Positions 6,001 through 30,170 of a DNA stretch of 64,000 bases are shown here, one piece after another. The notes beneath the pieces were generated by a model that was not told where the DNA came from, searched no databases, and saw only the letters and a list, made by a program, of their open reading frames with translations. The stretch spans positions 642,628 through 706,627 of the forward strand of contig JAQGDQ010000051.1 of the NCBI GenBank assembly GCA_030141605.1, given 5' to 3'. The DNA is from Tubiluchus corallicola. Its lineage: Eukaryota > Priapulida > Priapulimorpha > Priapulimorphida > Tubiluchidae. Numbering within the stretch: the stretch's first letter is position 1; each line of letters starts with the position of its first letter. A program made the position numbers and the translations under genes.

Positions 6001-8768
6001 GCAGGCAATGTTATACAATAAGAGAACACCTCTCATATCTAGTAAGAAGGCTTCCACATCCAATTCTATTAATTTATTAAGATATACAGACGAACTGCAG
6101 CATCTAGTCAAAACTCACTTAGAGCTACCTGAAGCATTTGACACCTACACAATTCTGTTCATCTCTGGAGATATATAGACAAAATGTAGCATCTAACCAG
6201 AACTCATTTAGAGCAGTCCCAAACATATACAAACAACCCGGAACATCTAGTTATAACTCACTTAGAGCAATCAGACATGTAGGAAGAAATATCTAGTCAA
6301 AACTCATCTAGAGTAATATCAAGTATTTGGACAGAGGAAATTCGATTGTCAATCTCAAGTATCTGGCAGAAGGCTTCTATAGGGAATGTTAAGCATCTGA
6401 ACAGGGAAGTACACAGAAAGCCTCAATTAGCTTGTTAGAAGACACGTACACCTAAACTCAAGCATCTGGTAGGAAGATTCAACCGTTTGGTAAGACTGTA
6501 TATATGCAGTCTAAATGATCTACTACTACATCATGTCTGAAGGCACTTCCTCTGAACCCAATAATCTGTTAAGATATACAGGCATCCTGAAACACCTTAT
6601 CAGAACTCGCTTAGAGCTACCTGAAACATTTGACACCTACACAATTCTATTCATCTATTGAGATATATAGACAAAATGCAGCATCTAACCAGAACTCATT
6701 TAGAGCAGTTCCAAACATATACAAACAACCCGGAACATCTAGTCAGAACGCACTTAGAGTAATCTCTAGAATCTAGACTGATGAAGTCTATTTCGAATCT
6801 CAGATACCTAACCAGACGACCTGTGCAGGCAATGTTATACAATAAGAGAACACCTCTCATATCTAGTAAGAAGGCTTCCACATCCAATTCTATTAATTTA
6901 TTAAGATATACAGACGAACTGCAGCATCTAGTCAAAACTCACTTAGAGCTACCTGAAGCATTTGACACCTACACAATTCTGTTCATCTCTGGAGATATAT
7001 AGACAAAATGTAGCATCTAACCAGAACTCATTTAGAGCAGTCCCAAACATATACAAACAACCCGAAACATCTAGTCAGAAGTCACTTAGAGCAATATCAG
7101 ACATGTAGGCAGAAATATCTAGTCAAAACTCATCTAGAGTAATATCAAGTATTTGGACAGAGGAAATTCGATTGTCAATCTCAAGTATCTGGCAGAAGGC
7201 TTCTATAGGGAATGTTAAGCATCTGAACAGGGAAGTACACAGAAAGCCTCAATTAGCTTGTTAGAAGACACGTACACCTAAACTCAAGCATCTGGTAGGA
7301 AGATTCAACCGTTTGGTAAGACTGTATATATGCAGTCTAAATGATCTACTACTACATCATGTCTGAAGGCACTTCCTCTGAACCCAATAATCTGTTAAGA
7401 TATACAGGCATCCTGAAACACCTTATCAGAACTCGCTTTGAGCTACCTGAAACATTTGACACCTACACAATTCTATTCATCTATTGAGATATATAGACAA
7501 AATGCAGCATCTAACCAGAACTCATTTAGAGCAGTTCCAAACATATACAAACAACCCGGAACATCTAGTCAGAACGCACTTAGAGTAATCTCTAGAATCT
7601 AGACTGATGAAGTCTATTTCGAATCTCAGATACCTAACCAGACGACCTGTGCAGGCAATGTTATACAATAAGAGAACACCTCTCATATCTAGTAAGAAGG
7701 CTTCCACATCCAATTCTATTAATTTATTAAGATATACAGACGAACTGCAGCATCTAGTCAAAACTCACTTAGAGCTACCTGAAGCATTTGACACCTACAC
7801 AATTCTGTTCATCTCTGGAGATATATAGACAAAATGTAGCATCTAACCAGAACTCATTTAGAGCAGTCCCAAACATCTACAAGCAACCCGAAACATCTAG
7901 TCAGAAGACATTTAGAGCAATATCAGACATGTAGGCAGAAATATCTAGTCAAAACTCATCTAGAGTAATATCAAGTATTTGGACAGAGGAAATTCGATTG
8001 TCAATCTCAAGTATCTGGCAGAAGGCTTCTATAGGCAATGTTAAGCATCTGAACAGGGAAGTACACAGAAAGCCTCAATTAGCTTGTTAGAAGACACGTA
8101 CACCTAAACTCAAGCATCTGGTAGTAAGATTCAACCGTTTGGTAAGACTGTATATATGCTGTCTAAATGATCTACTAATACATCAAGTCTGAAGGCACTT
8201 CCTCTGAACCCAATAATCTGTTAAGATATACAGGCATCCTGAAACATCTAGTCAGAACGCACAGAGTAATCTCTAGAATCTAGACTGATGAAGTCTATTT
8301 CGAATCTCAGATACCTAACCAGACTAACTGTGCAGGCAATGTTATACAATGAGAGAACACCTTTCATATCTAGTTAGAAGGCATCCACATCCAATTCTAT
8401 TAATTTGTTAAGATATATAGACGAACTGCAGCATCTAGTCAAAACTTATTTAGAGCAGTCCCAAACATCTACAAACAACCCGAAACATTTAGTCAGAAGT
8501 CACTTAGAGCAATATCAGACATGTACGCAGAAACATCTAGTCAAAACTCAGCTAGAGTAATATCAAGCATCTGGACAAAGGAAATTCGATTGTCGATCTC
8601 AAGTATCTGGCAGAAGACGTCTACAGGCAATGTTAAGCATATGAATAGGGAAATACACAGAAAGCCACAATCAGCTTCTTAGAAGTCATCAGTGACCAAA
8701 CTCAAGCATCAGGTAGGAAAACTCCCTGAGTTTAGAAAAGTCCCACTCATCTACAAACAACCTGAGCG
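1..8768 (+). repeat. Higher-order satellite array (~34 bp monomer, ~826 bp unit)
   Basis: The stretch is built from variants of a ~34-35 bp monomer whose best conserved part reads catctagtcagaa or catctggcagaag. The monomers form a higher-order unit. The marker segment tctgaaggcacttcctctga occurs at about 921, 1746, 2572, 3262, 4051, 5023, 5714, 6535, 7361 and 8188. The spacings are therefore 825, 826, 690, 789, 972, 691, 821, 826 and 827 bp, all close to whole multiples of ~34.4 bp (20, 23, 24 or 28 monomers). Units at 1081, 1907, 5875, 6696 and 7522 are nearly identical over at least 300 bp. Short frames of 73 and 79 codons recur in each unit, but only because the DNA is repeated. No gene is seen. 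The array continues past the left edge. Confidence 0.95.
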
Positions 8769-9881
8769 GACACTTGAAATGGACAGCAGATATCTCCTGA
8801 CTAGAATCTTAAGAGCGCCCGTGCACACCTTCTGGCCTGATACTTTATATTTTCATTAGATACCCTCTCGCTAGTTGCCTGATTACCTGTAGAACTTTTC
8901 TGGCCAGATAATTGTAAGTGGTTATATGCCTAACAATGTGCTCAACATTGCCTGTATAAGTTTTTTGCTCTCTGACTTGCTAATGGCAGTAGATGTTTTG
9001 TTGAGGTTGCTCTACATGTATACTGGCCAGCTACTTTTGGATTTCTGTATATATCTTCTGGCCAGGAATTTAAGCGTGCCTGTAGAACTTTTCTGGCCAG
9101 ATACCTGAGATTCTCAGTAGATACCGCCTGACTAGCTGCTTAAGACTGCCTACTTATCAGATGCTTGCAATTCGTTGCAGATGATTTCTTTACAGTTGTC
9201 GAGGCTGCCAGGATATGTCTTTTGGCCAAATACTTCAGATGCGTTAATATCATTTGTAGACGCCTTCTGAGCTGATACTTGATATTGTCATTAGATGTCT
9301 TCTCCCTAGTTGCCTACGATTACTAGTAGATCTTTTCTGGCCAGATACTTGAGATTCAGAGTAGATACCTCCTGGCTAGCTGGTTAAGACTGCATGTAGA
9401 TGTCTACTTATCGGATGCTTGCAATTCGTTACAAATGATTTCCTTACAGTTTGTTGTGGCTGCCAGGATATGTCTCTTGGCCAAATGCTTCAGATGTGTT
9501 AATATCACCTGTAGACGCCTTCTGACTTGATTCTGACAATGTACATTAACTTTGCCTGTAGACATCTTCTGGACGGGTGCCTGCGATTAGCTAGAGATGA
9601 TTGAAATTGCCAGTAATTGCCTTCTGACCAGATTTATAGTCTACATATAAGATGCTTGCAGTTCGTTGCAGATGATTTCTATACAGTTTGTTGAAGCTGC
9701 CAGGATAAGTCTCTTGGCCAAATACTTCAGATGCGTTAATATCATCTGTAGATGCCTTCTTTTTGATACTTGATATTGTCATTAGATGTCTTCTCACTAG
9801 TTGCCTAAGATTACTTGTAGATCTTTTCTGGCCAGATAATTGTAAGTGATTATATGCCTTCTAACAATGTGACAATTACTG
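8769..9881 (-). repeat. Satellite block in inverted orientation
   Basis: Here the monomer appears as its reverse complement (ttctggccagatacttgaga, tagatgtcttctg) instead of the forward form (ctggccagaagacatctaca). The switch lies near 8768, where forward monomers ending in caacctgagc give way to cttgaaatggacagcagata. Two inverted sub-units (about 8897-9340 and 9345-9840) are reverse copies of units in the next forward block, for example around 10463-10996. They share the odd segment aattgtaagtg plus ttatatgcc. Confidence 0.88.
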
Positions 9882-12800
9882 GCAGCCTCAATCATCTGTT
9901 TAGGACAGCAGCTGTGACTAATCACAAGCAGCTAGTCAGGAGTTAGGCAAACATCTGTAACTAATCACAAGCAGCTAGTCAGGAGATACCCACTATCAGT
10001 CAAAAATATCTGGCCAGAAAAGATCTACAGGTAATCTTAGGCCACTAGTGAGAAGACAGCTAATGGCAATATCAAGTATCCAGTCAGAAGGCGTCTACAG
10101 GTGATATTATCACATCTGAGGTATTTGGCCAAAAGACATATACTGGTAGCCTCAACAAACTGCAAGGAAAACATCTATAACTAATTGCAAGCATCAGATA
10201 AGTAGACATCTACGGGCAGTCTTAAAGAGCTGGTCAGGAAGTATCAACTGTGAATCTCAAGTATCTGGTCAGAAAAGTTCTACAGGCATGATCAAATTCA
10301 TGGCCAGAAGACATGTACAGACAAACAAAAGCAGCTCGCCAGTATACAAGTAGAGCAATCTCAAACATCTCAACAAAATATCTACTGCCATTAGCAAGTC
10401 AGAGACCAGAAAACTTCTACAGGCAATTTCGAGAACACTGTTAGAAGACATAATCACTTACAATTATCTGGTCAGAAAAGATCTACTGGTAATCTTAGGC
10501 AACTAGTGAAAAGACAGCTAATGACAATGTCAAGTATCAGGTCAGAAGGCGTCTACAGGCGCTCTAAAGCATCTAGTCACGAGATATCTACTGTCAATAT
10601 CAAGTGTCAGCTCAGGATGCGTCTACAGGTAACATTAACACATCTGAAGTATTTGGCGGAGAGACGTATGCTGGCAGCCTCAACAAACTGTAAGAAAAAG
10701 ATCTATAGCTAATTTCAAGCATCAGATAAGTAGACAGGCAGTCTTAAACAGTTAGTCAGGCGGTATCTACTGAGAATCTCAGGTATCTGGCCAGAAAAGT
10801 TCTACAGGCACGCTTAAATTCCTGGCCAGAAGACATATACAGACAACCAAAAGCAGCTGGTCAGTAAACATGTTGAGCAATCTCAAACATCTCAACAAAA
10901 CGTCTACTGCCATTAGCAAACCAGAGACCAGAAAACTTCTATAGGCAATGTTGAGCACATTGTCAGAAGACATATAATCACTTACAATTATCTGGCCAGA
11001 AAAGATCTACAGTTAATCTTAGGCAACTAGTCAGAAGACAGCTAACGACAATGTCAAGTATCAGCTCAGAAGGCGCCTACAGGTAATATTGACACATCTG
11101 AAGTATTTAGCCAAGAGATGTATACTGGCAGCCGCAACAAACTGTAAGGAAAACACCTATAGCTAAGTGCAAGCATCAGATAAGTAGACAGGCAGTCTTA
11201 AACAGCTAGTCAGGAGGTATCTACTGTGACTCTCAAGTATCTGGTCAGAAAAGTTCTACAGGCACGCTCAAATTCCTTGCCAGAAGACATATACAGACAA
11301 TGAAAAGCATATGGACAGAATACACGTATACGCAATGATAATAAGCACTGGGCCAGAGGACATCTATAGACACCATTAAACTTGGTCAGGAGACCATTAC
11401 AATCAGCCTCAATCATCTCCTAGGAAAGCGTCCATAGCTAATCGCAAGAACGCGTCCAGAAGATGTCTGCAGGCAACGTCATGCACATTGTCAGAAGGCA
11501 TACAACCACGGGTGATATTAACACATCTGATGTATTTGGCCAGGAGATATATACTGGCCACGTCAACAAACTGTAAGGAAAACATCTATAACTAATTGCA
11601 AGCAGCAGATAAGTAGACATCTACAGGCAGTCTTGAACAACTAGTCAGGAGGTATCTACTGTGAATCTCAAGTATGTGGCCAGAAGGCTTTTACAGGTAA
11701 TCTTAAGCGCCTGGATAGAAGGTATGTAATACCAATCTCAAGTATATGGAGAGAGGACATCTACAGGCGATATTAAGCACCTGGCCAGAAGCCAATTACT
11801 GGAAACTTCAATCATCTCCTAGAAAAACATCTATAGCTAATCGCAGGCACCCGTCCAGAAGATGTCTGCAGGCAATGTTAATGCACATTGTCAGAAGACA
11901 CAACCACTCAGAAGTATCTGACAGAATACTTGTACAGGTAAGACATCTACAAGCAATATTAAGCACCTGGCCAAGAACATCTACAGACACTATAAATCTG
12001 GTCAGAAGACAATTACTGGTAGCCTCAATTATCTCTTAGGAAAACCTCTATAACTAATCAGAAGCAGCTAGTCAGGAGATATGCACTATCAATCTAAAGA
12101 ATCTGGCCAGAAAACTTCTACTGTTGCTCTGAAGTTTCTGATCAGAAGACATCTACAGGCAACGTAAAGTAACCGGTCAGGAGACATTTAGAGCACTCTG
12201 AAACATCACAACAAAATGTCTACTGCTAACTCCCAAGTATCAGATCAGAATACATCTACATGCAACAATATTAAGCACTGGACCAGAGGACATCTATAGA
12301 CACCATTAAACTTGGTCAGGAGACCATTACAATCAGCCTCAAACATCTCCTAGGAAAACATCCATAGCTAATCGCAAGCACCCGTCTAGAAGATGTCTAC
12401 AGGCAACGTTATGCACATTGTCAGAAGACATACAACCACTCACAAGTATCTGACAGAATACGTCTACAGATAATCTTAAGGTCAGGAGACATCTAGCTCA
12501 ATCTCAAACATCTCAACAAAGACATCTGCTGTCTATGTCAAGTATCAGACTAGAAGACTTCTACAGGCAACGCTAAGCACATTGTCAGGGGACATAGAAC
12601 CACTCACAAGTATCTGACCAGAAGACTTTTACAGGTGATATTAAGCAACTGGCCAGAACACATCTGACTATATATCTGGTCAGAATACAATTACTGGCAG
12701 CCTCAACAAACTGTAAGGAAAACATCTATAACTGATTGCAAGCATCAGATAAGTAGACATCTACAGGCAGTCTTAAGCAGCTAGTCAGGAGGTATCTACT

Positions 12801-13276
12801 CTGAATCTCAAGTATCTGGTCAGAAAAGATCTACTACAAGTAATTGTAGGCAACTAGGGAGAATACATCTAATGACAATATCAAGTATCAGGTCAGAAGG
12901 CGTTTACAGATGATATTAATGCATCTGAAGTATTTGGCCAAGAGACATATCCTGGCAGCCTCAACAAACTGTAAATAAATCATCTGTAACGAATTGCAAG
13001 CATCTTATACGTAGACTATAAATTTGGTAAGCAGACAACCACTGCCAGCCTTAATCATTCGCTAGGAAAACATCTATAACTAATTACCAGCTGCTAGTCA
13101 AGAGATATCCACTATCAATCTAGGACAAAGTATCTGTCCACAAAACTTCTACTGTCGCTGTCAAGCTTCTGGCCAGAAGACATCTACAGGCAACCTAAAG
13201 CAATTGGCCAGGAAACTATCTCAAACATCTCAACATAATGTCTACAGGCAATGCTAAACATATTGTCAGAAGACAT
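9882..13276 (+). repeat. Older forward satellite block, 35 bp monomer
   Basis: This block consists of tandem ~35 bp monomers of the type ctggccagaagacatctaca followed by ggcaatattaagcac. Copies are much more diverged from one another than in the left array. Irregular higher-order units are visible: the segment around aagtagacatctacaggcag recurs near 10205, 10727, 11185, 11607 and 12757, with spacings of about 522, 458, 422 and 1150 bp. The 97-codon and shorter open frames here are repeat artefacts. Confidence 0.88.
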
Positions 13277-14150
13277 GTTTTTGTTGAGATGTATGAGATT
13301 GATCTAGAAGTCTCCTGACCAGCTGCTTTAGGTTGCCTGTAGATGTCTTCTGGCCAGAAGTTTTAGTGTGACACTAGAAGTTTGCTGGCCACATACTTTA
13401 GATGGATATCTCCTGATTAGCTATTACTTATAGATGGTTTCCTAACAGATTATTAAGGCTGCCAGTCACCGTGTCCTGGCCAGTAATTGTCTCCTGATCA
13501 GATTCATAGTGATTGTAGATGTGCTCTGACCAGGTGCCTATTATTGCCTATAGATGTATTCTGCCCAGATACTTGAGTTTAGTTTTGGCTACTTTCTGAA
13601 TAGGCGCTTAAAACTACCTGTAGCTGTCTTCTGATCAGATGCTTGTGATTACAGATGTTTTCACAACAGGTGTTTGAGGCTGCTAGTGGTTGTCTCGTGG
13701 CCAGATTTATAGTGCCTGTAGATGTGTACTGGCCAGGTGCTGAATTTTACATGTAGCATCCTGGCCATATACTTGAGATTGGTATTAGATACCTTCCGAC
13801 CAGGTGCTTGAGGTCTTTTGGTTTGGTACTTGATATTGGCAGTAGATGTTTTTGTTCAGACGTTTGATATTGATTTACATGTCTCCTGACAAGCTGCTTT
13901 AGGTTGCCTGTAAAGGTTTGCTGACCACATACTTTAGATGGATATCTCCTGATTAGCTATTACTTATAGATGGTTTCCAAACATTTTGTTGAGGCTGCCA
14001 GTATGTCTTCTGGACAAATACGTAATGTGTTAATGTTGCCTGTAGACGTCTTCTGGTCTGATACTTGATATTCGCAGTAGATATTTTGTTGAGATGTTAT
14101 TGCTCTAGATGTCTCCTAACCAGTTGCTTTAGGTGCCTGTAAAGAATATT
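13277..14150 (-). repeat. Second inverted satellite block
   Basis: The orientation flips again near 13276, where agaagacat runs straight into gtttttgttgagatg. Monomers then read as reverse complements (tctcctgaccagctgcttta, gatgtcttctggccag) until the field ends near 14150. A small hairpin with 7 bp arms (attctgc and gcagaat, 14148-14166) sits exactly at the satellite border. Confidence 0.85.
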
Positions 14151-14202: not shown

Positions 14203-15552
14203 TAAACTGTAAACAAAAATAATATTAAGAAGCAATGGAGTACAATTAACAGCTTACTGAAAATTAAAAGTAAAACACAAGTTGTCCCTTCCTCTGTAGA
14301 TAGCAATGGTCATGCTACAAGTGACCATCTCTCTATTGCTAATGCATTTAATAAATTCTTCCAGTCTGTAGGTAGTAATATGGCCAATAAAATCCCACCC
14401 ACTTTGAAGACATTCTTCAATGATACAAAACTAAGTATATGTTAATCAGTAGGAACCTTTCACAACAAGACTCTTCCACATTCGCACTCAAAATTGGCGA
14501 CATAACTTTAACACAAAGTAGTAGTATAAAATACCTTGGGTTGCATATTGACAACAATATGAAGTGGTCTACCCATATTTCCTCTACAGTAACAAAATTA
14601 AACAAAACAGCTGGTATTTTTGCAAAGTTAAGACATTTTATTAATTTCCCTGTTTTGAAAATGATCTACCATGCATTAGTCTGTCCGTACCTCCAATACT
14701 GTGTGTTGTCATGGTGGCAAACAAAAAAATACTTATTACAACCACTATTATCAGTTCAGAATAAAATAGTTAAATACATGACTTTCGCCAATTACAGAGA
14801 CCATGCAACACCATCGTACATACACCTTGGTTTATTGAAAATAGAAGATATTTATAATCTTAAATTATTTAAATTCATATATAAGTATAATAACCGGCAG
14901 TTGCCTGAATTGCCTTATATACTAACTACTTTACCTTAATCAAAGATGTTCACTCTCACTATACTAGGTCTTCCAGTATGTGACACTATTTTCAATCACG
15001 ATTTAACACAGCGTATGGCTTAAATACCTTACAGCACAATGGAGTTATTTTGTGGAATAGTGTACCCAATACAATCATTTCCTCTCCTTCTTTAAAAATA
15101 GCTAACAAACAATATAAGATATTTTTACTTAGTAAATATTCATTGGCGTAGAAAACCAGAGGTTTTTTCTCTTTTTTGTGCACGTGTGTCTTTTTGCACT
15201 AATGTTTTTCTTTTACTAATAGATATCATTACGACCTTTGTTACTTTATTAGTAAAAGGTATAAATTAATTTAAATGAAATTATTCATTCATCGCAGCCT
15301 ATGTCAAAATCGTAATTTCATATTATGTTTCCTTGCTATTATTACATCATTTACTTTATTACATCAATTACATTAAGTCATCTACAAAAGCACGCATAAC
15401 TTTAATAATTTTTCATTTAAGTAAGGTGAGTGTGTTAATGACCGTATGGTCGTACACTCACTTCGCACTACTCAAATAATTTTATTTATTGTTTATTAAT
15501 GTGTACAATATTGTATTTTGTTGTGTGAAAATAAATTCATAGTATAGTATGC
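14203..15552 (+). mobile_element. CR1-like LINE copy with reverse transcriptase core deleted
   Basis: The fragment has two joined coding parts. At about 14215-14440 one frame reads like the linker between endonuclease and reverse transcriptase (KKQWSTINSLLKIKSKT, then SIANAFNKFFQSVGSNMA). At 14439-14939 a 166-codon frame matches the region after the catalytic core (MLISRN, IKYLGLHIDNNMKWSTHI, FAKLRH, YPYLQY-like CPYLQYCVLSWW). The RT motifs that belong between them are absent, so an internal deletion joined the halves. A frameshifted tail (LWNSVPN) follows, then a 3' untranslated region with a stem-loop at 15426-15461 and an end of the form gaaaataaattc plus short atagt repeats. The terminal layout matches the copy at 22326-24175. 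It is non-functional. Confidence 0.85.
15426..15461 (+). other. 3' stem-loop of CR1-like LINE
   Basis: Arms gtgagtgt (15426-15433) and acactcac (15454-15461) pair perfectly. The loop holds a nested gacc-gtat-ggtc. The copy at 24041-24083 has different arm sequence but the same nested apex. In LINEs of this group such a hairpin is usually the site where reverse transcriptase recognises its RNA. Confidence 0.7.
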
Positions 15553-18500
15553 ATTTGATTTGTAGTTAGTGCTTACGTAACATTATTTTAATTGCAAAAT
15601 TATCTTGATATCTGTACAACGTTTTAAATGGTGTTTAATTTTGATCAAATTGGTAAGCACCTGATATTGTTGTCACCTCTTTTTTAGCATAAATATATAT
15701 GTTTTCGTTCGTACTTTAAATAGTTTGTCATTTGCGTTTTCCTAATCTTCACCGTTTCCACTAATTATGTGCTACCAGCAACTTAATACATTAGGTGACC
15801 TTACATACGCCCGCTTCTTAGGTCTCCTGGGAATTTAGCAATACTGCACTAATGACATAACTTAGCATTCAGTACTATTAATCATTATAAATTTTGATAT
15901 GTGAGGTTATAACAATTACATACGTGCATTTTATTGCCAATTCTATCGACCTGTAACTGCTATAAGTGTACTTAAATATTGGTCCGCAAATAATCTTGTG
16001 GCATGCAACGTACTTCTGTATGTTGATATGGTACGGTATTACTCTAGCTAGTATGTGAGTACTGTAAAACCCTGGTCGGGAATTGTGTCTGTAGTAAATG
16101 TACTGTGTATAGGACACCATCTTTGTCTTAAATGAAGCTGCATCATTTGTATGAATTAAACTTGTATGAATAAATGTATTGAATTTCGAGGCGATCTATA
16201 CATACATAAAACTTGGTAGCTTGTGACCACTTTAACTTGAATGCTCCTTTAACTTAGGTGACAATAACGTACTTAGCTTGTCTGTGTACGTGGTAAATAC
16301 TTTACGTAAGACAATAATTGACAGTTTTTCCATGCTGATGATGTATTTTGGTAAAACCACTTTTTTATGCAAACCTGGTCTCTGATTTACAGATCTATTT
16401 TAATATTACGAGGCTAGCCTATTCTTTATTTGGACTTGCTTATCAATAATTTAAGCTGCTTTTCTTGATTATTTTCATGAACAAAATTGTCTCGAGTGTA
16501 GAGATCATACTCAATAATTAACAGTCGTACAAAAATATGGTTATGTCAGATACATCCATAATTATGTACTGATGAGTGTGAACTTCTTTAACTATAATTA
16601 TTTGCATCTATAGTGTTTTGCTTTCCATAATCATTTTGTATAAAAATGTGCTATGCAGAAAATGTGCCATCTTACTGTGTTGATGCTACATACATAAGTT
16701 ACATTTGTCAAGAATGCCATGTAAAAAACAAATGTAAAGTTTTTAAGATATGCATGAACAGAAAGATTTATTTCATATTAGGAAGTCCAGCTGACATTTC
16801 ACAAATAAATAGATAAGTAAAAAAGAGAATAAAACTGCATTAAAATCTCATTACCCTCGGAATCTTTACAAATACATATCTACAATCAGCATTTTGCCAT
16901 CTGCACAGGTGCATGAGGAAAACAAGGCCATCTGTGAAAATCTATAATTTTCAATTGTTGTTAATTTCACATGCTTTTACAGTGTACACTATACTACTGA
17001 ACTTTGTGTCACTTCTCAATAACAATATGCCACTCTGGGCAAACTAAGTCAAGCTTTCTCCTGTATTATAATGATAGCATACAACAGAGGTAGCAAAACG
17101 ACAATGTAATGTTCACCAACATTGCACCAATTAAATTGCAATAAAATGTTATCTACAATTATTATTTGAATTTCTAGTGATGTACAATAAAACAAATAAT
17201 GCTTCTTTTTTTCAGACAACAGTTAATTTAAGACCACTCCTCTTGACTGACAATACCTTCAGGTCACAAATGCCCTACAGCCCACAAAACTATACATTGT
17301 TTGTATACTACTGCTCTATTATGTCAGAAATGTTTAACCAACGATCTCACCATTAAATTGGTAACTTCACAAACTTTTAATAAATAAACCTTACACTTAT
17401 TTGAGTTTAGCTTGTAGAAAAAAGTTAAACAGTTGTAGTTAGTGAACATGTTACCATGGAGCAATGTTAACAATGAGGTTTATGAAAGGGTATAAGAATT
17501 GAATGATAATAATCTACTGAACTGAATGAATAAGATTAGTTTGCATCTATTCTCCATAAATTCATACCATCAGTGGATAATCAGTTCATGGGAATTGGGA
17601 TACGAAGCCGATCCACACAGCTTTCGGGCTGTTTACTGCTGTTTCAGGAGAAAGCAGGGCGCCCATGAACCATGAAGGCTTTCTAAGGAACCTTTGCATC
17701 TAAGTGTACGAAATTACTGCACAAAGATAATGTCATATTTGATTTTAGTTGCTCTATGTTTGTAACAAATAAAAAGGGTCCACGAGATGGTGATGATGAT
17801 TATGACGAGTATTTGTCGGGGAATTTGTAGATTTTCCGAAAAAGAAGTTGAGTGGCATTGGCAATACAATCAATTTGCATGAGCCACAGAAAAAATAATC
17901 TGTGATCAAAAATAGAAGCCCAATAAATTATAATCAATTAAATTAAGATTGGTTCTGCTAATACTTCTTCTGCAAAACTGTTTTTAAAACATACTACTAT
18001 TAGTACAGTCAACATATAAAACAAATTGTCCAGCTACCAAATGTGTCATAACTGAACCATGTCTGAAACAGTTCTCGAATGTGTGCACTATACATCTCTG
18101 AAACAATACCTATTTTTCATGTAACATGTTTCCGTGATGCAGTGTACATTCAACTAGCGAATGGCGAAATGCATGTCATAGCAGAGAACTAGCAGCGTGA
18201 TGTGAAATTACATTTCTGTGGTAATAATTCTTTCACGTAAGTCATTCTTGAAAAAATAGTTATGTTCCCTTTCAATTTTTTATAGGTTGATTAATCGTCG
18301 GTTGATTAATTCTGGATAAGGGGATAATCGAGAATTTAGTATGGGAGCAGTCAAGATGGCCGATAAGATGGCTGTTGCCTCATAAGGGCCATATCTTTTT
18401 GAAATGATCTCTTTTGGCCTTCCTTTCTTTGTGAACAAAGTCTTTAAATGTTTTATCAACTAACACACATGTATAGTATTATGTAATTTGTTAGATACAT

Positions 18501-18690
18501 TGCTACACGCTGCAACAGGCAAGTAGCTTAGATAGATCACCATTCATTTAATTTTTTTTTCAAATATTGCCCTGTTCATAGTTTGTCACTTGGGTTTTCC
18601 TATCTACATTTTTAATAATAGTCGCCTCTTCTACTAATTATGCGTTACCAATCTCTTAATACTTAGGTGGCCTAGCATAAATCCGCATCT
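15553..18690. other. No recognisable gene
   Basis: This is AT-rich sequence between the LINE fragment and the repeat family at 18.7 kb. Open frames are short (80 codons or fewer), lack recognisable motifs and lack splice-site support. No tRNA-like promoter boxes or terminal inverted repeats were identified by eye. Confidence 0.6.
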
Positions 18691-19040
18691 TGTCAGTTCT
18701 GTCAGCCTTTACTGGTAGCGACCAGAATTCAGATTTTGCCAGGAGAAAAAACGACAGCCAGTCCACATGGCACGTGTTTGAAGAGGTACCAGAAGAATTT
18801 GGTGACTCAAAGCATTATTTCTAGAGCTAAGCTGCTGACTTGCCTCATATTTTTGCTTGTACGTTTTGCTGCACTCTGGTATAACAAAGCCGCATGCATA
18901 ATTGTGACAGTTGACAAAGCACCTAAAGACTTGTCCACAAGGAAAAGAGTGTCATTAAGTGCAAGATTTGGTTGTAACATCGAGTAGAGCTGTTGGGACC
19001 AGGTACTGATCCTTACCCTAAACTTTTCCGTCACCATGTG
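18691..19040 (+). repeat. Degenerate transposon-associated coding repeat, copy 1
   Basis: The region matches the reverse complement of about 57530-57840 for more than 250 bp (shared segments gaagaatttggtg, gagctaagc, cgttttgctgcactct, acagttgacaaagca, aaaagagtgtcatt). Broken frames read like one protein: HVFEEVPEEFGDSKH, then RFAALWYNKAA, then TVDKAPKDLSTRKRVSL. From memory, the pattern resembles an uncharacterised protein common among invertebrate repeats (FVVLLYDRTS followed by AR..LF..K). I cannot assign a transposon class. An 83-codon open frame at 18736-18987 covers only part of it and is probably not a gene. Confidence 0.6.
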
Positions 19041-19475
19041 ATTGAGGCTAGAAAAATGATACTGAACTGATAAGAAAATCACAGTAGATCTTGCATTCTG
19101 ATGCCAAGTGAGTGTCCATAACTTATTAAATGTTGTTGCCAGAAGAGAAAGGCATACATTTACTGTGGCAGGTGTAAATGTATTCAAAAGCAAGTACTGT
19201 TTGCACCACGCAAATGTGGTGGCAAATGTGACAGAATGTTTAGAAGCAATGTTATTATTAAAAACCTACCTATTATTTATTTATAATAAAAATTATATAT
19301 TCATTCTATTTATATTATTTTTAAAACTTATCTAGACACTAAAATCATTCTACCTGCAGTAAAACATGCAAACGGCAAATAAATTACATGAACACCAGTA
19401 TTTGCAGTCATGGTGAAATCCTAAATAAGGCAGGTTATACATGCATATAAGCATCCAACACGGACTTCGTGCCAT

Positions 19476-19606
19476 TTGAAAACCTATATTTAGACACCAA
19501 AATTATCATCCTATCTGCTTTTGTAACTAAGATATGACCCTTATATTCTGGCAACAGCAATCTTGCTGGTCATTTTAAATTGTGGCCACAATGGGCAACT
19601 TACGTA
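19476..19606 (+). repeat. Unnamed interspersed repeat, copy a
   Basis: It starts ttgaaaacctatatttagac, continues accaaaattatcatc and aagatatgacccttat, and ends in tggtcattttaaattgtggc plus cacaatggg. The reverse complement of 62830-63010 is clearly the same sequence (ttgaaaatctatattaagac, accaaaattatcatagtagc, gatatggctttcaaaatag). Confidence 0.65.
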
Positions 19607-19730
19607 ACCAAGACTAATCATTTTAATGGGTTTTAGCTTTTAAAGTAAAGTGAGCAATTCTGTAATTTTGTGTAACATTTACAGTCATTTTCAAATGGGG
19701 TGATGTTACAGTGGCAATTAAGTATCAGAT

Positions 19731-19892
19731 TTGGAACCCTTGACGCAGAAAATCTATATTTAAACGTCAAAAAAACATCAAAGTCGTCATCCTACTAGCT
19801 ACTATAAGCTGTTTACTAGTCCAGATATAGCCCTTATAAGCCGCCAACAGCCATATCGTTGGTTTCTTGAAAATTAGGGCCATATTGGACAA
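19731..19892 (+). repeat. Unnamed interspersed repeat, copy b
   Basis: A second copy follows 125 bp after copy a: gaaaatctatatttaaacgt, gtcatcctactagctac, ccagatatagcccttata, cgccaacagccatatcg, then gggccatattggacaac. The order of blocks is the same as in copy a. Confidence 0.6.
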
Positions 19893-22159
19893 CTTTTGAT
19901 TGATTCCATACACAAAATTAATTGAATAAGTGGGTTCTAGCACTTCTGCAAAGTTTCATGCTTTCAAGTCAAAATAAGCAATTTTTTACCATTCAGGTTG
20001 ACTAAATATTCTACCAATTGATTTTGGTCCAATGGTTGCCACATTTTTTGACATCACAGTTAGAACCTTTGTGATACTCCATTTTTGGCCTGTTTTGGTA
20101 TATTATTCTCTGGATTAAATATTACAAGAAAACACCATAAATCGTTTTCTTGCAATTTTTTGGGGTGTCAGCAAATTGATCCTACTATATGTATAACTGA
20201 GAAATGATGAATCATCAATATACTAGGATTATTAAGCTTGCACAATTTATTATAGTTGTACTATGCTGGAGTAACGAGCACTTCCATAAATATTAAGAAA
20301 TTATCAGTTTTTGTCACTCACAAGTCTGTTTTTAAAAGTGTCACTGCAGATGCCAACATTTTTATACATAATTACATTTTATATGGTACACTTTAGCAAG
20401 TGCATTACTTTGAGGAACAGCATGACAGCGAAGTACATGGCATTGTTAGTTGCAAGTTTCCACTTAATTCTTATTATTCTGAAAGATGGATGCCCACGAG
20501 GTGGTGGTGTTTTCTGGCTGATTAGTGCAGCCACTGCTCCAGATGTTCCGCAAGCTTGACATAGACCAGGTAGAGAAGGGATCAAAACGTGGTTCCTATA
20601 AAAATAATTCAAAAACATCATGAACAGTGCAGTTTGTAGTGTAATAACTAACTTAGTAGCACTGCATAAGAGACTTTCGCTTATAAGAGACTACATTTTT
20701 AGGTCTCCCATGCAATAGAAATTATTATTTATCTACTATATCGTATATATTAATTTCGGTGGTGTATATATATATGATATTATATATATGGATATATAAC
20801 TGATGAAGCTACAGCTCCAATGACGGCACCATTTTAGGCAATCAAACGAAAGGTCCGGACCCACAGATTTGCCATTGGGGTTTTATTTTTCGAATCGGGT
20901 CCACCGGGATGAACGAGGAGCAAAAAACCTCCAGAAAACGCCCTTTTCGGCCATCTTTTGCAAAACTTATGCCTCTTATTTCTAGAGAATAGTCATATTT
21001 AGATATCGCATGATTTCAACAAAGCATATGAACCAGCAAAATGAATGACACAGGTGTAATTAATCTGCTTTTTGGAAGAAGTTGCAATGTCGATGGGTTT
21101 ACTTGAAAAACCAGTGGGTCTAAGGTTTGATGTTACATTTTACACGGGTCTGCTTAGGCATTACGGTTTTTCACGTTAACTAAAGCAAGTGTTGGTTTTA
21201 TTCATAGCATGAAATAGAAGGCAGGATTATGATTAATTTTACTATTTTTATTGACTTTTTAGCTCTCTTAGAAAACCAAACATTACACCATAATAAACTA
21301 TAAGTAACAGTTTAAAAGGATAAGCAATAACAACAAAACGAATCAAAAGGCAAAATATTGACTTTCAATCTGTGAACCCTTCCCCCGAAAGGATAAGGAA
21401 ATGGAAGACGAATCGAGACGTAGCTCACTGCTAATACCAGCAAAAAACACTGGCACGTTCAGTTCGTATACACAAGTATCAGTGGTGACGATGACAGCTC
21501 GAGCATTTAGCAAACATAGACTAGAAAATGACTTTCACATGCCCTCCTTGTTCACGATCGGCCTAAGATAGTCTCAAGCACCCGGCTAGTTGTGGCGAGT
21601 CACCTTTCTATTTAGCTAGGCTTTGGATTAAGTACACAGCATGATCAAAGCTCCAACCAAACTTCATTGGTTTGGTATCACAACTGCGTCTCTTCATATC
21701 AGGTAAACAAACAGATGTGCACAGGTTTAAGCAAGTTTAGATAACCATTTTTAGTTAATAAAAGTAAAAGCATTTTTAGCAAAAGTAATCACAGAGGTAT
21801 AAAATTTGAGGTCTAAAACAGTTAAGATTAAGTTTGTGAGATAGAATAAATTATTTTCACCGATTTCCAAACATCATAAACAGACAAACTTTTTTTTGGC
21901 TTTAATGCAAGAAACAATTCAACTTTAATAATAAGCCCACAAAAATTATCATTAGTAAGATCATGCAATATCCTGATCTTTAAATAATTAATATGTTCAA
22001 TTAAGTTCCCTCGTTCACATTTTACTCTAGCAGCTCGAAAAAAATCAACAAAGAAAATAACATGTATAAGAGTAATCCAATCAATTGATCGAAATGAACA
22101 CTCCCATATAAAAAAAACAATACGAAGGCTAATTCAAAAAATTTAAAGCAAAGCTAACA
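19893..22159. other. No recognisable gene
   Basis: AT-rich spacer. It includes a short alternating TA stretch near 20766-20800. Overlapping 80-82 codon frames lie at 20311-20621 on both strands, with no recognisable domain and no splice support. Confidence 0.55.
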
Positions 22160-22229
22160 GGTTATGCAACAATAATGCATATTGTTGACAAACTGGTTAT
22201 GCAACAATAATGCATATTGTTGACAAACT
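22160..22229 (+). repeat. 35 bp tandem duplication at the left BEL LTR edge
   Basis: Two perfect 35 bp units (22160-22194 and 22195-22229) each hold 26 bp of flanking DNA (ggttatgcaacaataatgca, then tattgt) and the first 9 bp of the LTR (tgacaaact). The duplication therefore arose after, or during, insertion of the LTR element. Confidence 0.85.
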
Positions 22230-23652
22230 GCTCGAACTCATTTGTAACTTATTTTTAAAACTTTATTTTAATTCAAAGAAGTATCATGACGGTATAGAAA
22301 AAATTATAACAGCAATATCTCAGCCTGGCAATTACAGACCAATATCTCTCTTATCACCAGTATCAAAAGTTTTTGAGAGGCTAATTTACAAGAGATTATA
22401 CCAGTTTGTTGTGAAAAGTAATATCCTAAGTAAATACCAGTTTGGTTTCAGAAAAAATTATTCAACTGTCCTTGCTGTATCCGAATTAATAGACACGACC
22501 TCTCTAGACACTGACAAAAAATTACTGAATTGCGGAATATTTTTAGACTTATCAAAAGCTTTTGATACCGTACAGCATAGTATACTAATAGCCAAATTAA
22601 ACCATTATGGCATCAGAGGTCTACCTTTGCAACTAATTCAGTCATATCTAACTAACAGAAAACAATTCATATCTATTAACAATGTATCATCAGACTATAA
22701 ACACATATCGTGTGGAGTGCCACAAGGCTCTTATTTAGGACCTCTTCTATTCTTAATTTATATTAACGATCTTCCCACATGCAGCAACTTTCGAACCCGA
22801 ATATTTGCTGATGACACTAATTTGTTCATGTCTGACTCCAATATAAATAATCTGCAAAAATCTGTTAATGACGAAATGAAAAAAATAGACCTGTGGATGA
22901 GGGCAAACCAGCTATCAATTAACTACAAAAAAACCAAATTTATGATAATCAACAATAAGCAAATTAACAATGCTAATAATCCAAAATTTCATATTATAAT
23001 AAACAAACACAAAATTGAAGAAACAGACAACATCAAATACTTGGGCCTACTCATTGATAATAAATTAACATGGGAACCACATATAAAACACATAACATAC
23101 AAATTAAGTCGAATTACTGGAATAATTTTAAAAGTAAGGCACTACGTTGACCAATATATTCTGAAACTTCTATATAATTCGTTAGTTTTCCCTTATTTAC
23201 AATATTCCATCTTAACATGGGGTACGGCTTTTGCATCAATTCAAAAATTAATACAGACACAACAAAACAAAATAGTAAAACTAATAACTTTTGCTCGCAA
23301 ATATGATCATGCTACACCATCGTTCGTAAAATTAGAAATTTTAAAAGTAAGAGATATTTACAATCTTGAGTTGTTCAAATTTATGTATAAATTCAATGCT
23401 GGTTTATTACCTGAACTTTTTAGTGAATATTTCACTAATGTTTCTGATATACATTCCTTCTCCACAAGAGCTGCTTCTAATGAAAAGTATTTTGTGGAGA
23501 GATTTTTTACCCGACATGGTTTCAATAGCTTAAAATCACGAGGAGTTAAATTATGGAACTCGTTGCCAAAAGATACCTTTGGAGGTAGCTTATTTTCTGC
23601 TTCCAAAAAATACACAAAATTCTTACTAAATGAATATACCTGTAATACATAA
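22210..23652 (+). CDS. CR1-like LINE reverse transcriptase, 5'-truncated, chimeric start
   Basis: An uninterrupted 480-codon frame encodes a non-LTR reverse transcriptase that copies element RNA at a nicked target. Motif A is LDLSKAFDTVQHSIL (from residue 112), motif B is SCGVPQGSYLGPLLFLIYIND (from 167) and the catalytic motif C is FADDTNLF (199-206). After these come the thumb and C-terminal region (IKYLGLLIDNKLTW, PYLQYSILTWG, LWNSLP). The endonuclease domain and ORF1 are missing through 5' truncation. Roughly the first 38 codons are not LINE sequence: four come from flanking DNA and the others from the BEL LTR read antisense. Native LINE protein resumes at PGNYRPISLL. The intact frame suggests a fairly recent insertion, but without endonuclease it should not move on its own. 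Confidence 0.85.
   Translation: MHIVDKLLELICNLFLKLYFNSKKYHDGIEKIITAISQPGNYRPISLLSPVSKVFERLIYKRLYQFVVKSNILSKYQFGFRKNYSTVLAVSELIDTTSLDTDKKLLNCGIFLDLSKAFDTVQHSILIAKLNHYGIRGLPLQLIQSYLTNRKQFISINNVSSDYKHISCGVPQGSYLGPLLFLIYINDLPTCSNFRTRIFADDTNLFMSDSNINNLQKSVNDEMKKIDLWMRANQLSINYKKTKFMIINNKQINNANNPKFHIIINKHKIEETDNIKYLGLLIDNKLTWEPHIKHITYKLSRITGIILKVRHYVDQYILKLLYNSLVFPYLQYSILTWGTAFASIQKLIQTQQNKIVKLITFARKYDHATPSFVKLEILKVRDIYNLELFKFMYKFNAGLLPELFSEYFTNVSDIHSFSTRAASNEKYFVERFFTRHGFNSLKSRGVKLWNSLPKDTFGGSLFSASKKYTKFLLNEYTCNT
22221..22325 (-). repeat. BEL 3' LTR, outer part (split by LINE insertion)
   Basis: The sequence from tgacaaactgctcgaact to gcaatatctcagcc aligns with 29930-30034 of the other LTR with a few substitutions. 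The rest of this LTR lies at 24182-24274, beyond the inserted LINE. Confidence 0.88.
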
Positions 23653-24175
23653 CTTGTAAGACTAATAAGCAAGCTATCAAGTGTTTTTTTTTCTCATCTC
23701 CTAAGTAATTGTTGCTCTTTCTTATACTTACTTTTTCTCTTAAATTTTCTATATTACACTTTTTTTGATACTTATTTTATCTCTCCATACAGTCAAAATC
23801 CCCTGTCAATAAGGCCCCTATTTGAAAATACATGTAATAATCATAATTACTTGTATTAATTGTATTGTTTTGTTTAGATTTAGGTGTCATCTAACTTTAT
23901 TATTTTTTGTTTTCACTTATACTGTTTTCATTTATACTTTGTTTTCATTTATACTGTTTATTATTATTATTTTTTTCCTATTTGATTTTGTTATCCGCAG
24001 TCTCACCATTTACTTTTAATATACTAATTTAATTATAAGACAGGGCAGGAGACTAGATGACCCTATGGTCCTTCCCTGCCCTGCTCCACTACTATAATTA
24101 AGTAATATTTAAAAAAACTTGTCATGTCAAACAAATGGAGAAAATAAATGTTCTATGTCTATGTCTATGTCTATG
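22326..24175 (+). mobile_element. CR1-like LINE nested in the BEL 3' LTR
   Basis: This 1850 bp insertion interrupts the LTR. The LTR hexamer tcagcc is present on both sides (22320-22325 and 24176-24181) and acts as the target duplication. The 5' end is truncated inside the reverse transcriptase domain. The 3' end has a hairpin, gaaaataaatg, and a tail of four tctatg repeats (24152-24175). Microsatellite tails of this kind (ttctatg) are typical of CR1 elements, which end in short direct repeats instead of poly(A). Confidence 0.9.
24041..24083 (+). other. 3' stem-loop of nested CR1-like LINE
   Basis: Arms cagggcagg (24041-24049) and cctgccctg (24075-24083) pair perfectly. The loop holds gacc-ctat-ggtc (24059-24070), the same apex as in the copy at 15426-15461, although the arms differ in sequence. 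Confidence 0.75.
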
Positions 24176-24181
24176 TCAGCC

Positions 24182-24646: not shown

Positions 24647-25918
24647 TTAAATTCTAGGGGCATAGCTTATTGGCTGATTTACGTAGAATTTTTTTCCGGT
24701 TAAGACATCAATGACACGTACTAATCCGTCGCTTCCTGGATAGGTGTCCACAATGCGTCCGAGTTTCCATTCTCGTCTGGATGTATCCTTGTCTATTATT
24801 AGTACAGTATCGTCCACTTTCAAGTTTGGGGCATCTGAAAAACACTTTTTTCTTGAACCAATAATGGCAAAAGTTCTTTCATCCATATTTGTCAGAAATG
24901 TGAAATGAGTTCTTGAACACGTCTCCATCTTTTTCTCGGATGAAATGGTTCTTTGTCCACGGATTCTCGCCTCCAATTTGTCCCTGTAAAAAGTGGTTTT
25001 GAGTGATGATAGGCTCATCTTGTCGCTAGGTGGTGTTAGTGGCCGTGAGTTTATCAAACTTTCTGCTCCTACTATTGCCATGTGTATCGTTGATATCAGC
25101 ATTATCCAAAACAGCTGAAATGGCACGTGTTGCTGATTTGATCAGTGATTCAAACACTCCAGCAAAATATGATGCTTTAGGTGGATCCCAAATTCACTCA
25201 ACTCCACTATTGACTAACCTGCATTGTACCATCTCCTGGTCAAAGGCTGACATTAATTCTCGGATTTCTTTTTCTCCTGTTGTGAAGTTTGTAGCATTGT
25301 CAGACAAAATTTTCTTTGGCCTTCCTCATCATGACACCATTCTAGTAAATGCATTCAAGGATGCATCTGTATCCAAACTTTTAGCTATTTCTAAATGTAT
25401 CGCCCGAGTTTGTAGACAGGTGAATAAACACAAATATCTCTTTGCTCGTACTTTTCCTCGTCCTTGTTTTGTGATGTAGGGTCCTCCATAATCAACTGCA
25501 ACATTTGTAAATGCTATCAGTGTTGCACCTAACCACAGCTTTGGTAGAGGTGCCATTGTTTGATGTACAGGCTTAACTCTGAATAGTTGTTGTTTGCATT
25601 CATTGCAATGCAATTCTATCTTTTTATCAGTCATCTTGATCTGACTATCTAATATTTTTCTAGTAGTCGACTTTGCGTGCAAGAGGTTCCTATATCATGA
25701 TGATCTCGTTCATGATAGTCCTTTACGATAAGCTGCATGATCCAACTTTTTTGTGGTAGCATGATAGGATATATAGTGCTTGTTTTTAGGAATTTACCAT
25801 TCTGTAGTTGACTGTTTGCCTTCATTATACCATCTTCAGCATCGATGAATGGATTCAAGTTCAAAATCTTGCTGCATTTTGGTAGAGGGTGGCCTTTGCA
25901 GAATGCTAACCATTCCAC
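24647..25918 (-). pseudogene. BEL/Pao integrase region
   Basis: Three overlapping frames make up the integrase, which inserts element DNA. Residues encoded at 25918-25649 look like the zinc-binding domain (HERDHHD with LLEKY after it). Those at 25682-25329 hold the start of the catalytic core (CNECK, MAPLPKLWLG, VAVDYGGPY, KRYLCLFTCLQTRAIHLE, SLDTDASLNAFTRMVS). Those at 25126-24647 hold the end of the core and the basic C-terminal domain (AESLINSRPLTPPSD, then LKVDDTVLIIDKD, REWKLGRIVDTYPGSDG, VRVIDV). At least two frameshifts separate these parts. The region around 25130-25330, which should carry the second catalytic acidic residue, is open only in a shifted frame. Confidence 0.88.
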
Positions 25919-28329: not shown

Positions 28330-29921
28330 TCCATGTAACAAGCGATGGTGAGTTTCGAGGCAGCCTTGTTCACCACAGGCGCGAAATGTAGTACACTTGG
28401 AGCCCACGTGACCTCTGCCCAGGCATCTGTAACACAGTCCTATTTTCTTAGCAGTTTGCCATCGCTCTGAAACATCTCTTGACTGGAATGCTTCATAGCT
28501 TTGTGTTCGATGGTTTTCTCCACAAATAGCAAGCCCGTTTCTTGGCTTGATTTCCCCCTGTTTTCATATACTATTACTGTTGTCTGTTAAAAACGTTTTC
28601 GACTCTTTTTTCTGATCAAAATTCCTCGTTCTCTCGAAGTTTGGCTGTTCATCAAAACCATGTATGCCTTCGTGCACTTCTGTCTGGATTCTGACTTTTC
28701 TTTCAATCTACTCTGCCAACGAGTTGAGATTCTCTTCTCTGTTGTAGTCAGATAACCATCCTTTGTATTCTTCCAATTTTTTCTCGCCTAGTTTTTTCTT
28801 CATCAAACAGTAAAACGTGGACTGTCTTTCGAATTCATCCACCCGTCCTTGGTCAAGCGTATCACCATAGCAGTCTCTAATTTCTCGTAATAGTTTTCTA
28901 AATCGTTGCATTTTCCGTCTCGAATTGTTCATGTTCACGCATTCATCTATACGAAGCAATGTCGCTCTACATTCTCTACCATTGTTTTCCAGTCGACTTT
29001 TGCGACGTCATATGCTCCTGTAGAATAACATAAACCGTCCACGATTTTCAAGGCTTCCCCTTTTAAGCACTCCTGTAAATGTAACATCCTATATTCTGGG
29101 TTGGCTGGGGTACGATCAATGCATGTAGAAAAAGCTGTCCACCATCTCTCGTAGTCTTTTTTCTCACCCGAAAAAGTTGGAACTGGGACTCTCTTCAATA
29201 GATGTTGCCACTTATCTCTGCTGGTAGAATTTGCTGTGAATGGAGTGAACGTGTTGACGTAGTCTGCGTCTTGAATGAACAAGTAATCATCATCAAATGG
29301 ATTCATAGTGTTTCGTACGGGCGTTGTATTTTGAAACCCTGCTGTATTGTTTACATCAGTCGCACCTGTAGTACGTCTCACAGTAGCGTTCGGGTCAGCT
29401 GTAACGTGACAAATTTACTGGCCTAGATTTCAGACGAGCTGAAGGTTGATCTTTGTACAGCAATAGACACTAATACTTTTTGAGCCTGGTTGATTATTTC
29501 GTTTGCATTTTCGAAAACCAGTTCTGCCTCATTTTCGAATTGTTCAATTAAGTCTGACCTCTTCTCGCTTATTCTCTATCTCCGTTACTAATGCGCTGAT
29601 ATCTTTATCGTCTGCCAGTAACAAAACTGTCGCTAATTTGCTGCACATTTTGCTGAGCAAAATTTTAACGTTCTTTTTTTCCCGGATTCGAACTTGGTAT
29701 GATTCATCTTTGCTTCGGTGGCTGACTTCATCATGAACATCAGTTTCAATGCTTGTTTGAGCAGACGCTATCGTAATTTCGAAGTAGTTTCACGCGCTGC
29801 ACCTGATCTACTCACTGCTACCATTTAATTCTTGACAAACTGCTCGAACTTGTTTGAGCAGACGCTATCGTAATTTCGAAGTAGTTTCACGCACTGCACC
29901 TGATCTACTCACTGCTACCAT
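28330..29921 (-). pseudogene. BEL/Pao gag region with zinc knuckle
   Basis: Gag forms the particle that packages element RNA. A likely start is the ATG at 29919-29921 (MVAVSRSGAARETTSKLR), which is duplicated 97 bp away at 29822-29824. The central frame at 29381-28947 has VPVPTFSGEKKDYERWWTAF and LKGEALKIVDGL, the Pao gag pattern. The next frame (28959-28708) continues it after a frameshift. Near 28390-28435 a CX2CX4HX4C knuckle (CYRCLGRGHVGSKC) remains intact, preceded by DVSERWQTAKKIGL. Confidence 0.85.
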
Positions 29922-29949
29922 TTAATTCTTGACAAACTGCTCGAACTCG
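29756..29949 (-). repeat. 97 bp tandem duplication across the 5' LTR/gag border
   Basis: The segment from gagcagacgctatcgtaatt to ttgacaaactgctcgaact occurs twice with a 97 bp offset (for example gcagacgcta at 29761 and 29858, and the gag ATG at 29822 and 29919). Each copy contains the gag start, the leader and about 20 bp of LTR terminus. The copies differ at about one base (gcgctgc versus gcactgc). Confidence 0.85.
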
Positions 29950-30170
29950 TTTGTAACTTATTTTCAAAACTTTATTTTAATTCGAAGTAGTATCATGACG
30001 GTATAGAAAAAATTATAACAGCAATGTGTCAGCCCTGCTTCGTATCAAAACCGGAACTGACTTGCTAGCCTGTTTAGGTATAGAGAAAATAGAGAGAAGC
30101 CAGCCGAGACGTCACATTCATATTTGTAAAGTTTAAATTACTGGCCTACTACAGTACACATTTTTTAACA
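29930..30170 (-). repeat. BEL 5' LTR
   Basis: This 241 bp direct repeat of the split left LTR runs from tgacaaactgctcgaactcg to acacattttttaaca and has TG...CA ends on the plus strand. It should contain the element promoter, but I see no unambiguous TATA or initiator. Confidence 0.88.

Follow-up and report, generated by a model that had tools for sequence, protein, structure and literature searches.

A group of LINEs in the priapulid Tubiluchus corallicola carries near the 3' end a two-helix hairpin whose lower arms differ in sequence between subfamilies and remain paired, and this hairpin is in our view very likely the 3' recognition signal of a 'stringent' group of CR1/L2-type LINEs. The hairpin is present across the family, holds its position, covaries, and is the part of the 3' UTR on which conservation between subfamilies centres; the linker between endonuclease (EN) and reverse transcriptase (RT) is conserved as well. 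We have high confidence in the structure, and the grounds for the mechanism are good but indirect.

Two LINE copies and their 3' hairpins

The window, meaning the whole 64,000-nucleotide stretch that was analysed, holds two LINE copies with the following features.

14427..15148, + strand: RT remnant of LINE copy 1 (subfamily F, class I hairpin), with a frameshift near 14912
15425..15464, + strand: 3' hairpin of copy 1, arms GGTGAGTGT / ACACTCACT, internal loop GTTAAT / GT, inner helix GACC / GGTC, loop GTAT
15465..15550, + strand: 3' tail of copy 1, GTGTGAAAATAAATTCATAG end; the end is approximate; the homology of relatives stops about 118 nt past the apex
22321..23652, + strand: RT domain of LINE copy 2 (subfamily E, class II hairpin), 5'-truncated
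24041..24083, + strand: 3' hairpin of copy 2, arms CAGGGCAGG / CCTGCCCTG, internal loop AGACTAGAT / CTTC, inner helix GACC / GGTC, loop CTAT
24084..24178, + strand: 3' tail of copy 2, AAAATAAA, then (TCTATG)n

That both copies are LINEs, as an earlier note on this DNA had proposed, is borne out by an RVT_1 domain in copy 2 (E 6.8e-35; 98% identity to other copies) and by the remnant of copy 1, which contains an ORF at 14439-14939 and which tblastn aligned in two frames to the intact relative L123 with 92% identity. The two RTs belong to different lineages, copy 2 being 53% identical to an intact relative of copy 1. The note had also described a hairpin at the end of each copy with arms unrelated between the copies yet paired, and both helices can be seen in the window. 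In copy 1, GTGAGTGT (15426-15433) pairs with ACACTCAC around GACC-GTAT-GGTC at 15440-15451, in a helix one G-U pair longer than first described, and in copy 2 the arms enclose GACC-CTAT-GGTC at 24059-24070. Both hairpins fold better than dinucleotide shuffles (z -4.4 for copy 1 and -3.8 for copy 2, with 0 of 200 shuffles as good for each). Their placement needs one correction, since the hairpin is near the 3' end but not at the very end; in five subfamilies the distance from its apex to the 3' end is 109-118 nt. In the genome (343.5 Mb) there are 1466 occurrences of the apex GACCNTATGGTC, many of them within tandem arrays, and 119 of the reversed control.

Several other features were observed around the two copies. 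Positions 2646-14134 are taken up by a long, degenerate stretch resembling a satellite, whose units are close to 35, 70, 100 and 288 bp; part of it, from about 13280, is inverted, and LINE copy 1 starts just downstream of it. Adjoining LINE copy 2 is a 159-aa ORF on the minus strand (24647-25126) with a match to DUF5641 (PF18701, E 3.8e-12), a domain that occurs in Pao/BEL-type LTR retrotransposons. At 29752-29953 a stretch of 97 bp has recently been duplicated in tandem (2.1 copies, 98% matches).

The hairpin across the LINE family

Picking copies by their apex would have biased the sample, so the family was sampled with no hairpin requirement: the genome was searched with the RT proteins of both copies, and the DNA downstream of diverged matches was taken. 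Sixty diverged RT matches were taken, two of which were too short, and 58 regions were used. About 55 of these 58 carry the hairpin, downstream of RTs down to about 42% identical, in about 12 types (A-K and M). Family members whose arms do not pair were what the earlier note had named as evidence against its claim, and with this outcome the claim was not refuted. When 3' ends were read and folded, the two-helix hairpin recurred across subfamilies.

A covariance model of 16 types matches 46 of the 58 loci, although eight of the 46 (L039, L044, L050, L055, L073, L078, L079 and L085) supplied model sequences and match by construction. Every best match is on the LINE sense strand, and the one weak antisense match falls on the same hairpin as a sense match. 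Among the loci brought in by the RT of copy 2, 27 of 29 have a model match. In the window the sole match is at 24038-24087 (model R1, E 1.4e-12), and copy 2 is itself among the 16 training sequences. The model is blind to class I, and class I hairpins, some of them decayed, are found in nine further loci (L069-L072, L076 and L081-L084), the hairpins of L069-L072 and L076 being of the copy 1 type. In three old copies among the 58 regions (L086, L088 and L092) no hairpin was visible. Types N, P, Q, R, S and T come from core patterns, and some of them rest on one copy; the genome-wide pattern samples used shorter patterns and the first 100 places listed. For type N, there is no RT in the 1500 bases upstream at L003.

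The hairpins fall into two classes that share the inner helix RACC/GGTY. In class II, to which the hairpin of copy 2 belongs, the arms are AAGGG-YRGY / GCYRCCCTT, with the variants GTGAG/CTCGC and GCAGG/CCTGC, and the internal loop has TGACTNGAT on its 5' side and TTTC or TTTTC on its 3' side. The apical loops are 3-5 nt long (AATT, TCCT, TTT, TTCTT, TACG, AATA, CTT, TAC and CTAT). In class I, GT on the 3' side of the internal loop faces either GTWAAW or GCAGAA on the 5' side, the apical loop is GTAT, and there are at least three unrelated arm pairs: GGTGAGTGT/ACACTCACC in type F (copy 1), GGAAAGGGA/TCCCTTTCC in type N and GGGCAACAT/ATGTTGCCC in type K. The fixed apex claimed earlier thus holds in part. 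The inner helix, itself covarying, and the internal loop are constant; the NTAT loop is not. An NTAT-type loop is constant within class I and is one among many loops in class II, and we rejected it as a family-wide constant given that AATT, TCCT, TTT and TACG also occur. Because copy 1 and copy 2 represent the two classes, the contrast between their arms overstates the usual pace of change.

Within the family, arm pairs can be seen to swap in step, as in GCAGC/GCTGC, GTAGC/GCTAC, GTGGC/GCCAC and GTGAG/CTCGC. After manual setting of the pairing register, 141 of the 144 arm pairs in 18 types are canonical, against 106 +/- 4 when the 3' arms were exchanged, and none of 20,000 exchanges scored as high. 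In a MAFFT alignment that was not fitted to the structure, double changes are found in 10 of 14 pairs (27 cells), and the covariation score is 0.453, compared to 0.256 +/- 0.025 for shuffled alignments (0 of 500 as high) and 0.09-0.17 for slid partners. A pattern made of the core alone, with the arms left free, has 347 matches in the genome and none for the reversed control; in the first 100 copies found this way, pairing is kept in 199 of 200 cases at two pairs that vary freely, where shuffling gives 156 on average. Mapped onto a maximum-likelihood RT tree, the ten tabulated pairs of nine class II subfamilies require at least 17 changes of pair state, with no unpaired cell; the tree was built on one protein region, and the hairpin types are not fully independent.

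The pairing might, alternatively, be a by-product of sequence descent, or of inverted repeats at the level of DNA, with no selection on RNA. Many copies are indeed related, and tandem hairpin arrays exist. However, the slid controls preserve relatedness and the double changes still exceed them, the changes on the RT tree leave no tabulated pair unpaired, and the flanking 3' UTR is mostly unconserved between subfamilies. Where the 3' UTRs of different subfamilies are similar (E below 1e-4), the similarity is over the hairpin, in most cases between about -20 and +30 relative to the apex, and wider matches are those of simple-repeat tails and of the closer type pairs A/C, E/P, F/N and J/R. We regard a by-product as very improbable. 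Selection on RNA structure, as proposed from the two window copies, is supported across many subfamilies, against both shuffled and slid controls and on the RT tree.

The selected structure could also be the precursor of a microRNA or some other structured RNA already known, and there are weak matches to miRNA families in Rfam. These are far under the gathering scores, no Rfam family matches at its gathering score, and nearly every locus sampled downstream of RTs has the hairpin at a LINE 3' end. With only sub-threshold matches we rejected identity with a miRNA or other Rfam family, and the chance that such a reading is correct seems to us the slightest of those considered here.

The encoded protein and probable recognition of the hairpin

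In intact relatives a PHD-like finger, an APE-type endonuclease and an RT are encoded in a single ORF of about 1100 aa. In L119 and L121 the PHD, Exo_endo_phos and RVT_1 domains are in one ORF; the PHD matches of 17.5 and 17.7 bits are below the Pfam cut-off of 24, yet span the entire domain. By their sequence the elements are classed as PHD-endonuclease-RT LINEs of CR1/L2 type, which may be of the CR1 or the L2 clade. Their domain layout is the same as that of CR1 subgroup 6 and L2 subgroup 4, which have an N-terminal PHD followed by endonuclease and RT in one ORF (Metcalfe and Casane 2014, PMC4120745); the word 'hairpin' is absent from that paper. The linker between EN and RT reads KPWxTxGILxSI(K/R)xxS...K...Y.NKLN...(S/A)K(K/R).Y, is basic and is strongly conserved in seven subfamilies, with no obvious change among these seven that tracks class I versus class II.

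We propose that the hairpin, which would sit roughly 100 nt from the 3' end of the LINE RNA, is read by the element's own protein. The lower helix of about 9 bp, which could be of any sequence that pairs, would present a fixed asymmetric internal loop (TGACTNGAT / TTTC in class II, GTWAAW / GT in class I), and above it a 4-bp inner helix RACC/GGTY would be capped by 3-5 nt. The protein would bind this structure, probably via the basic linker, and binding would place the RNA 3' end for target-primed reverse transcription. From the well-studied relatives ZfL2 and UnaL2, and with the help of the conserved linker, we infer that the protein binds the hairpin and that retrotransposition needs it. 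On the other side stand the lack of an obvious linker change that goes with hairpin class, the small sample in which no SINE with this tail turned up, and the three old copies with no visible hairpin.

A close parallel is with ZfL2-1 and ZfL2-2 of the zebrafish L2 clade (Hayashi et al. 2014, PMC4176376), which likewise have two stems, an upper and a lower one, close to the 3' end. In these LINEs stems can be swapped between elements and loops cannot, and the region between EN and RT of ZfL2-2, which starts with Pro-Trp and is rich in basic residues, binds the 3' stem-loop (PMC4176376). An exchangeable stem, a specific loop and a basic, PW-containing EN-RT region are all shared with the family described here, where the linker was equated with the ZfL2-2 region by position and motif, without profile comparison. 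The ZfL2 mechanism predicts a free stem and a fixed internal loop, as found here. The N-terminal PHD-like finger in the single ORF sets the elements here apart from ZfL2-1 and ZfL2-2. For ZfL2, binding and retrotransposition were assayed directly; the present family was analysed from its sequence. UnaL2 (Rfam RF00436) is likewise a short 3' stem-loop of a stringent LINE. We rejected membership of our hairpins in that family, as RF00436 had no match in a genome search whose controls were also empty, and none on the hairpins at permissive thresholds.

The hairpin might instead be selected for another role in the RNA, for example in forming its 3' end, or in its stability, export or translation. 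In favor of such a role, the subfamilies read have an AATAAA-like element downstream of the hairpin, close to the 3' end. Against this, a conserved internal loop, an exchangeable stem and a fixed 3' distance make up the layout of RT-bound LINE 3' stem-loops (PMC4176376), and the basic EN-RT linker is conserved. We consider such a role unlikely and favor recognition by the RT. At their 3' ends the elements have short tandem repeats in place of poly(A) (TCTATG, TTGAAT, TTA, ATTACT and TTCATAG were seen directly), like stringent CR1/L2-type LINEs.

Covarying 3' hairpins of LINEs have been found before. A hairpin shared by plant L1 LINEs and monocot SINEs has compensatory changes in its stem with a conserved loop and flank, and stringent recognition was proposed for it (PMC3747384). 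The variable stem with compensatory mutations resembles the one here, but those elements are of the L1 clade, and their hairpin is common to SINEs; here no SINE partner with the same tail was found, ARAGORN, a weak test for SINE heads, having reported no tRNA-like head in a small sample of 28 loci. Since covarying LINE 3' stems were known from that work, recognition by the RT has been shown in zebrafish L2 (PMC4176376), and no Rfam family fits, the hairpin described here is a new instance of a known signal. Its use lies in the series that one genome provides, in which at least a dozen variants of one hairpin accompany the RTs that are presumed to read them.

Class switch and tandem reiteration of the hairpin

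On the maximum-likelihood RT tree, subfamilies F (that of copy 1), J and K group together with 100% support, J and K being sisters whose RTs are 65% identical (support 100). The hairpins of F and K are of class I and that of J is of class II, and the class I of copy 1 is nested inside class II. RT and tail were read from contiguous DNA both for J (C977: L125, L079) and for K (C2314: L135, L084), and these sister RTs with different hairpin classes suggest exchange or repeated switching of the 3' tail. J may have swapped its 3' tail, or class I may have had more than one origin. The switch between J and K offers a natural experiment in the joint change of a LINE protein with its 3' signal.

Hairpin units are also repeated head to tail within LINE 3' ends, with units of 137 bp (F), 48 bp (N), 76 bp (Q) and 77 bp (J) and from 2 to about 40 copies per array. 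The arrays are at the following places.

C5, C21, C29, C53, C62, C74 and C106: tandem arrays (L006, L128-L133, L137, L138, L118)
C1594:113281-115233: tandem array (L113, L134), the N array with about 40 copies
C105:20290-20700: tandem array (L114)
C1255:188900-189700: tandem array (L136)

F copies with 2-4 units are at dispersed loci that share a common LINE 3' end and have different sequence beyond it; because the flanks differ in this way, these copies were evidently retrotransposed as multi-hairpin RNAs. It is conceivable, though we give the idea little weight, that reiterated hairpins are selected since a multivalent RNA would capture the RT better, and that the arrays then seed satellite DNA. 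Tandem-hairpin copies do suggest one route from a LINE tail to satellite DNA. On C106, two arrays are present in opposite orientations.
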